Shown: piece by piece, positions 20,363 through 22,576 of the stretch
How the letters are laid out: every line of letters starts with the position of its first letter
Numbering within the stretch: the first letter of the stretch is position 1
Assembly: GCA_943787375.1 (NCBI GenBank)
Contig: CALSME010000002.1
Location: forward strand, 62,001-126,000
Source: an uncultured Polaribacter sp.
GTDB taxonomy: Bacteria; Bacteroidota; Bacteroidia; Flavobacteriales; Flavobacteriaceae
Direction: 5' to 3'
Length of the DNA stretch: 64,000 nt
The notes under the pieces: generated by a model
Database searches by the model: none
Told to the model about the DNA's origin: nothing
The model's input: the letters and a program-made list of their open reading frames with translations, nothing else
Position numbers and translations under genes: made by a program

Positions 20363-20403
20363 TTGGAATTGATTAATTATCATATATTTGCATCCGCATT
20401 TTT
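20363..20403 (+). promoter_or_regulatory. Promoter of HU gene: TTG-N17-TATATTTGCATCCGCATTTTT
   Basis: Same spacing and same 20-bp core as the rplU promoter. Confidence 0.75.
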
Positions 20404-20440: not shown

Positions 20441-20731
20441 ATGACGAAAGCAGATATCGTATCAAAAATTTCAGACAAAACTGGTATTGAAAAAACAGAT
20501 GTATTAGCAACTGTTGAAGCATTTATGACTGAAGTAAAAGATGCATTGGAAAGTGGTAACAACGTTTATTTAAGAGGTTTTGGTAGTTTTATTATCAAAA
20601 CTAGAGCCGAAAAAACTGGTAGAAATATTTCAAAGAATACAACTATTAAGATTCCTGCACACAACATACCAGCCTTTAAACCGGCTAAAACTTTTACTGA
20701 AGGAGTAAAAAACAAAGTAACTGTTAAGTAG
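20441..20731 (+). CDS. HU/IHF-family DNA-binding protein
   Basis: MTKADIVSKISDKTGIEKTDVLATVEAFM, VYLRGFGSFIIKTRAEKTGRN. Confidence 0.97.
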   Translation: MTKADIVSKISDKTGIEKTDVLATVEAFMTEVKDALESGNNVYLRGFGSFIIKTRAEKTGRNISKNTTIKIPAHNIPAFKPAKTFTEGVKNKVTVK

Positions 20732-20784
20732 TAAAAAAAACATTAATCTAAATCTTCATTGATTTAAAAAAAAATCTCGTAATT

Positions 20785-20874
20785 ATGCCAAGTGGTAAAA
20801 AAAGAAAGAGAGCTAAGATCTCTACACACAAAAGAAAGAAAAGAGCTAGAGCAAACAGACACAAGAAAAAGTAA
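20785..20874 (+). CDS. 29-aa highly basic small protein (not in the ORF track)
   Basis: ATG..TAA encodes MPSGKKRKRAKISTHKRKKRARANRHKKK; stop codon lies inside the downstream terminator hairpin. Confidence 0.75.
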   Translation: MPSGKKRKRAKISTHKRKKRARANRHKKK

Positions 20875-20891
20875 GCCTCCGCTTACTTTTT
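20866..20891 (+). terminator. Hairpin terminator AAAAAGTAAGC-CTCC-GCTTACTTTTT
   Basis: Inverted repeat followed by a T run, overlapping the end of the small ORF. Confidence 0.8.
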
Positions 20892-20932
20892 CGTTTATTT
20901 AATAGCGAAAAACAAAAAGTTCATTGACATTA

Positions 20933-21024
20933 GAAGATTTTTTAAAACTGCAAAGGCAGTAAATCTTCGCACGGTATTATAAAATACCTGACAATATTAA
21001 TCCATCTACACAATAATTGTGTAG
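20933..21024 (+). promoter_or_regulatory. Three-stem-loop leader upstream of rng
   Basis: GAAGATTT(tttaaa)ACTGC-aaag-GCAGT-AAATCTTC; GGTATT-ATAA-AATACC; CTACACAAT-A-ATTGTGTAG, all within 92 nt before the ATG at 21044. Confidence 0.6.
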
Positions 21025-21043
21025 TGTTAAAACCAAATTCAGC

Positions 21044-22576
21044 ATGAAAAGAACAGAATTAATAATTCGTACAAATTCATCTGATATTGATTTTGCCTTA
21101 TTAAAAGATGGGAAACTTATTGAATTAAATAATGAAACAACTGATAACAAATTCTCTGTTGGCGATATTTTTTTAGCCAAAATAGGAAAGGTGTTAACAG
21201 GCTTAAACGCAGCATTTGTAAATGTTGGTTATCCTAAAGACGGATTTCTACATTATCATGATTTAGGCGCGCAAGTAAATTCATTAACGACATTCCTTAA
21301 GAAAGTAAGCACAGGTAAGTATAAAGAATTCACTTTAAAGAACTTCCAATTTCAGGGAGACATTCACAAAGACGGTAGTATTAACGAAGTACTAAAGACA
21401 GGTCAAAATCTGTTGGTACAAATTGTAAAAGAACCAATTTCTACAAAAGGCCCAAGATTAAGCTCAGACCTATCTATTGCTGGTAGATTTTTAGTTTTAG
21501 TTCCTTTTTCTAACAGGGTTTCGGTTTCTCAAAAAATAGAAGACCCAAAAGAAAAAGAACGCTTAAAAAGATTAGCAAAAAGCATTAGACCAAAAGGTTT
21601 TGGTGTTATCTTAAGAACTGTTGCCGAAGGCAAAAAAGTAGCAGAACTAGATAAAGATTTGCAGAACTCATTAGAACGTTGGAAAGCGACGTGTAAGCGA
21701 ATTGCGAACACAAACACTCCAACAAAAATATTGAGTGAATTAAACAGAGCATCTTCTATTCTAAGAGATGTTATGAATGAATCTTTTACAAATATTGTAA
21801 CCAATGATGCATCGCTTCAGGAAGAAATAAAGGAGTATTTGCAAGAAATTTATCCTGAAAAGGAAGAAATTGTAAAACTACACACTTCTGAAGTGCCAAT
21901 TTTCGAGAAATACGGAATAGAAAGACAAATAAAAACGTCATTTGGTAAAACAGTTTCTATGAGTAGAGGCGCTTATTTAGTTATTGAACACACAGAAGCT
22001 TTACACGTTATAGACGTAAATAGTGGAAACCGTTCTAACAAAGCTGGCTCGCAAGAAGACACTGCATTAGAAGTAAATTTAATTGCTGCTTCTGAAGTAG
22101 CACGACAGTTACAACTGCGTGATATGGGAGGAATTATAGTGGTTGATTTTATTGATTTGCATTCGGCAGAAAATAGAAACAAACTCTATCAGCATTTAAA
22201 AGAAGAAATGTCTTTTGATAGAACAAAGCATAAGATTCTACCTCCAAGTAAATTTGGTTTGATACAAATTACAAGACAAAGGGTAAGACCCGAGTTGAGT
22301 ATAAAAACTACCGAATCAAACCCAAATAAAAACGGAGAAGTAGAAGCACCAATTGTGCTGTTAGATAAGATAGAAGCAGACTTAGAAAAGTTTGTTTTGA
22401 ATAAGAAAAATAAAAAGACGAGCCTACACGTGCACCCTTTTATTGCTGCTTATTTAACAAAAGGAGTATCATCAATTCGTTTTAAATGGTACTTAAAACA
22501 TAAAAAGTGGATTACAATTATACCTAGAGACGCTTACACCTACTTACATTTTAGATTTAAAGCTATAAAAAGCTAA
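21044..22576 (+). CDS. rng: Ribonuclease G/E family
   Basis: MKRTELIIRTNSSDIDFALLKDGKL, S1-like domain, GGIIVVDFIDL; start trimmed from 21017. Confidence 0.96.
   Translation: MKRTELIIRTNSSDIDFALLKDGKLIELNNETTDNKFSVGDIFLAKIGKVLTGLNAAFVNVGYPKDGFLHYHDLGAQVNSLTTFLKKVSTGKYKEFTLKNFQFQGDIHKDGSINEVLKTGQNLLVQIVKEPISTKGPRLSSDLSIAGRFLVLVPFSNRVSVSQKIEDPKEKERLKRLAKSIRPKGFGVILRTVAEGKKVAELDKDLQNSLERWKATCKRIANTNTPTKILSELNRASSILRDVMNESFTNIVTNDASLQEEIKEYLQEIYPEKEEIVKLHTSEVPIFEKYGIERQIKTSFGKTVSMSRGAYLVIEHTEALHVIDVNSGNRSNKAGSQEDTALEVNLIAASEVARQLQLRDMGGIIVVDFIDLHSAENRNKLYQHLKEEMSFDRTKHKILPPSKFGLIQITRQRVRPELSIKTTESNPNKNGEVEAPIVLLDKIEADLEKFVLNKKNKKTSLHVHPFIAAYLTKGVSSIRFKWYLKHKKWITIIPRDAYTYLHFRFKAIKS

Follow-up and report, generated by a model that had tools for sequence, protein, structure and literature searches.

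The small reading frame between the HU and rng genes in a 64,000-nucleotide stretch of DNA from an uncultured Polaribacter (that whole stretch being the window below) is, as judged by sequence comparison, an orthologue of the small-subunit ribosomal protein bS22. The whole reading, namely a 30S protein seated in the h44/h45 pocket and made from a transcript that is shared with HU and stops at a terminator overlapping the gene, we put at a probability of about 0.97. The protein is already known and has been described in a Flavobacterium ribosome structure, so the observation is correct but ordinary, and the suggestion of something new in an earlier note on this DNA falls away because bS22 is a described protein.

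The frame lies where that note had placed it, running from an ATG to a TAA at 20872-20874, and its sequence and conservation mark it as a real gene (Table 1). Its product MPSGKKRKRAKISTHKRKKRARANRHKKK of 29 amino acids contains 10 K, 6 R and 2 H, so that most residues (18/29, 62%) are indeed of these three kinds; K and R alone make up 16/29 (55%), and both this charge and the length lie within what is expected of bS22 (55-65% positive, about 28-33 aa). The neighbours are also those named earlier, with HU ending 53 nt before the bS22 start and rng beginning 169 nt after the bS22 end. The closest named contigs are Polaribacter metagenome assemblies whose rng is 98-99% identical. The length cut-off of the ORF track together with the lack of an HMM match would explain any omission of the gene from annotation.

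Table 1. Features of the HU-bS22-rng region, in window coordinates.
Feature	Position	Strand	Basis
Bacteroidota-type promoter-like site, TTG-N17-TATATTTG	20363..20390	+	pattern in window, 80/131 loci
HU-family DNA-binding protein, upstream neighbour	20441..20731	+	Pfam PF00216, E 3.7e-29
Small intercistronic hairpin between HU and bS22, TAAATC-TTCATT-GATTTA	20749..20766	+	arms covary in relatives
bS22 gene (30S ribosomal protein), 29 aa plus stop	20785..20874	+	ORF list and homology
Intrinsic terminator-like hairpin, 5' arm formed by the final bS22 codons and stop	20865..20892	+	stem search and conservation
Structured rng leader	20919..21043		conserved
rng, ribonuclease E/G family, downstream neighbour	21044..22576	+	Pfam PF10150, E 2.8e-96

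A single-sequence search of PDB chains gave three matches in all, each to a ribosomal protein or a member of the same family. The best is the 30-aa chain 7jil_5 of the F. johnsoniae ribosome (26/29 identical, E 4.4e-10), followed by 9i5v_10, deposited as "AURKAIP1/COX24 domain-containing protein" and matched over its full length, and by Borrelia bS22 (8fmw_V, E 2e-6, again full length). With a profile built from an alignment of 15 members across the phylum the E values become 1.4e-15, 1.2e-13 and 4.2e-11 respectively, and at 23 loci the same-family orthologues read MPSGKKRKRHKVATHKRKKRARANRHKKKK, identical to the 7jil chain sequence. The earlier proposal of an RNA- or ribosome-binding small ribosomal protein thereby gains support from full-length matches to ribosome chains. 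F. johnsoniae bS22 (7jil chain 5; also 9oz9, 9ozn, 9ozz and 9p0e) belongs to the same family, matches over the full length and shares the N-terminus, but has H, V and A where the Polaribacter protein has A10, I12 and S13, and carries one extra C-terminal Lys. The Borrelia burgdorferi protein (8fmw chain V) shares the pattern MP.G.KRK..KISTHKRKK..NRHKK over its full length but comes from a different phylum and has a reported GUG start.

Family models see less of this relationship. No usable match was obtained when the single 29-aa protein and the 15 members were searched against Pfam and NCBIfam; for COX24_C (Pfam PF08213) the window protein had no match, the best E value among the 15 Bacteroidota members was 1.3 and did not reach the curated cut-off, and no COX24_C/AURKAIP1 (PF08213) protein was found in the organism's own genome. 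The actinobacterial bS22 proteins (Mycobacterium, Cutibacterium), mitochondrial mS38/AURKAIP1/Cox24 and eukaryotic eL41 are reported from the same h27/h44/h45 pocket (PMC10085706, PMC10618245, PMC6582356) but were unmatched by sequence here.

The matching PDB sequence itself carries a conflict of names, since its list holds both '30S ribosomal protein S22' and '50S ribosomal protein L38'. This sequence, u123360 (7jil chain 5 plus four entries deposited later), is one identical chain under two names, an inconsistency that could mislead annotation transfer, and with both names on the same chain bS22 and bL38 are open to confusion. The second label is what speaks for the frame being bL38, a protein of the large subunit originally identified in the ribosome of F. 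johnsoniae, which the earlier note had named merely as an example for comparison. We regard that assignment as very improbable, because the Borrelia chain matched is bS22 and the two are described as separate proteins in both F. johnsoniae and Borrelia, the Borrelia bS22 being a basic helix that lies where h2, h27, h44 and h45 form a pocket in the 16S rRNA and that contacts H68, and bL38 a 50S protein of beta-strands beside uL6 and H95/H97 (PMC10618245). The F. johnsoniae homologue of actinobacterial bS22 has moreover been placed at the same 30S site (PMC10085706). Like bS22, bL38 is a small additional ribosomal protein, and it was first observed in F. johnsoniae, but it differs in gene, subunit and fold. 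On sequence the frame is assigned to bS22 of the small subunit.

Structures of relatives, that of F. johnsoniae with bS22 in its 30S pocket included, describe a bent helix within the 16S rRNA pocket of h2, h27, h44 and h45 that touches the 23S helix H67/H68 upon subunit joining; it adds an intersubunit bridge and probably stabilises h44 together with the decoding region (PMC10618245, PMC10085706). The mitochondrial counterpart mS38 takes part in assembling the small subunit and in initiating translation of certain mRNAs (PMC6582356). By orthology the Polaribacter protein would occupy the same h2/h27/h44/h45 pocket and touch H67/H68, and so would stiffen the upper part of h44 and the decoding region and add a bridge between the subunits. 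An idea found in the literature links mycobacterial bS22 and mS38 to loss of Shine-Dalgarno use. A main function as a released antimicrobial peptide could be drawn from the C. acnes bS22 peptide, which in vitro is inhibitory to bacteria and to cell-free translation (PMC10085706), but no export genes adjoin bS22, and both the conservation pattern and the structures are typical of a ribosomal protein, so that we give such a function hardly any weight.

Conservation makes the case for a coding gene. The reading frame is kept in 55 of 59 relatives (46/47 among those at least 90% complete), and in a sample of the phylum 378 of 393 genomes, and 176 of 179 genera, have bS22, normally as one copy. Of the 36 genomes from the genus that were searched, the organism's own included, 29 encode exactly the same protein, and it is nearly invariant across 134 related loci, which were gathered with rng as the query and are partly redundant (90 distinct nucleotide sequences). 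Among 56 distinct 90-nt genes the variable sites fall at 8 first, 2 second and 25 third codon positions, and since the protein stays the same in 29/36 genomes while the DNA changes mostly at third positions, conservation is far beyond chance. Sixteen positions are invariant in the phylum-wide alignment, and the gene is retained even in a reduced genome of 345 kb (G050, locus L157). Relatives, phylum sample and codon positions together describe a conserved single-copy gene under purifying selection. A chance or decoy frame, conserved through the terminator hairpin alone, would draw on the constraint that the hairpin places upon the last codons; all 29 codons are conserved, the changes are synonymous, ATG and stop are stable and homologues sit in ribosome structures, and third-position variation alongside an unchanged protein refutes this explanation, leaving it practically no credence. 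The finding of bS22 phylum-wide here, and its reports from Actinobacteria and Borrelia, also dispose of the idea that the protein is lineage-specific. The earlier reading thus stands for the ribosomal protein, its neighbours and the stop codon within a stem, and fails for bL38 and lineage-specificity.

Fifteen of the 393 phylum genomes gave no bS22 match, and a profile recheck gave no convincing match in any of them. Seven belong to one family (f50), five to one genus (g108) and three lie elsewhere, two fragmented assemblies of family f32 among these. The f50 genomes (G202, G250, G254, G365, G379, G391, G424) and the g108 genomes (G282, G330, G342, G394, G445) are nearly complete. Probably some lineages have no bS22, or one diverged beyond recognition; the protein may be dispensable in some lineages, and natural loss in f50 and g108 is possible. 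A tie between absence of bS22 and absence of bS21 was rejected, since each of the 24 genomes tested has bS21 whether or not it has bS22, the f50 and g108 genomes included.

The stop codon of bS22 lies inside a hairpin, as had been noticed earlier. The 12-bp stem, GAAAAAGTAAGC-CTCC-GCTTACTTTTTC, holds the TAA within its 5' arm. Terminator-like sites number 4 in the region, against 0.3 expected from shuffles; this one is the strongest of them, and it is terminator-like in both orientations. Of 134 loci, 130 preserve the hairpin across the stop, and its arms change in a compensating way (TAAGC/GCTTA to TAGTT/AACTA), so that a TAA/TTA pair becomes TAG/CTA. It was asked earlier whether relatives might break the frame while conserving the hairpin; both are kept. 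Such a stem, stable, T-rich on its 3' side and shared by relatives, is what an intrinsic terminator presents, with activity here a prediction, and in more distant members of the phylum a hairpin at the stop is not obvious. The HU-bS22 transcript would thus probably end here, with the last Lys codons and the stop of bS22 making up the 5' arm of the terminator.

Bacteroidota-type promoters follow the consensus TTG-N15-22-TAnnTTTG. A site of this type lies 50 nt ahead of the HU start, the consensus is present in 80 of 131 HU upstream regions, and this site is likely the promoter of the HU-bS22 transcript. Between HU and bS22 is a small A/T-rich hairpin that stops 18 nt short of the bS22 start; its arms vary jointly (AAATC/GATTT, AAACC/GGTTT, ACTC/GAGT) and it lies 15-19 nt ahead of the start in most Polaribacter and Tenacibaculum loci, while it is absent from Flavobacterium-like loci, where the spacer is shorter. 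The HU-bS22-rng order is conserved in the family: HU is upstream in 133 of 134 loci, the remaining one being cut by a contig end, and rng is recognised downstream in 118, one of the rest being cut off and the others having failed the rng motif search. Among 20 more distant phylum members the order is partly kept: bS22 could be re-located in 16 loci, and in 7 of these rng comes directly after it. No promoter of the above consensus was found in 104 distinct HU-rng spacers (20732-21043 in the window), and because of this rng is suggested to rely on read-through or on an atypical promoter.

The 125 nt ahead of rng form a structured leader, beginning at GTTCATTGACAT (20919), with an invariant GTTC(A/T)TTGA motif and three hairpins, GAAGATTT/AAATCTTC, GGTATT/AATACC and CTACACA/TGTGTAG. 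On a hand-anchored alignment of 22 relatives the three helices pair in 97.6% of cells, against 29-48% for slid controls, and double-sided changes occur at 6 pairs and in 18 cells (shuffle means 1.7 and 4.4, values reached in 0/500 shuffles); the covariation comes from two of the helices, the middle one hardly varying. The leader matches nothing in Rfam. A covariance model built from it finds one copy in the organism's own genome, at rng, and matches rng leaders of Tenacibaculum and, weakly, of other Flavobacteriaceae. The E. coli rne leader is regulatory, and the simplest guess would be a comparable role here, the rng leader being a candidate autoregulatory element that transcription might reach by reading through the bS22 terminator.

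The motif GTTCWTTGAMAT was considered as a candidate boxA-like element; it is not enriched genome-wide (5 versus 6 in a reversed control), and its other matches share a repeat-like flank, none with an rRNA gene within the locus. Four other genomic GTTCATTGAAAT sites (L166, L167, L168 and L170, around position 1501) share a longer flank, GGTTTTA...CCCG(C/T)TTT...GTTCATTGAAATA(G/A)TAAAAG, one of them adjoining an Rhs/YD-repeat-like protein fragment, and look like a dispersed repeat unrelated to rng.

Quite how far bS22, besides its ribosomal role, might control rng can be framed as follows: a ribosome at the bS22 stop would cover the 5' arm of the terminator and so allow read-through into the rng leader. 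HU-bS22-rng would then be one unit in which translation of the stop region opens the terminator and couples bS22 to RNase E/G, the leader forming a second layer of control. The stop and final codons forming the 5' arm in nearly all loci, the fixed gene order within the family, the lack of a recognisable promoter in every spacer and the structured leader argue for such coupling; compact genomes commonly have terminators close to stop codons, an atypical rng promoter is possible and distant phylum members have no obvious hairpin, and on balance both the control by bS22 and the coupled unit seem unlikely.

For bS22 as a ribosomal protein the main value of the finding is one of annotation: nearly the whole phylum has a ribosomal protein too short for ORF cut-offs, and pipelines can miss the gene because the Pfam and NCBIfam models tested do not recognise it, even though its fixed placement between HU and rng, with a stop codon inside a terminator, makes it easy to find. 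The natural losses, if true, could show what bS22 is dispensable for. The stop-in-terminator arrangement offers a simple test of translation-coupled termination, and of all parts of the finding only this overlap and the leader of rng could lead further.
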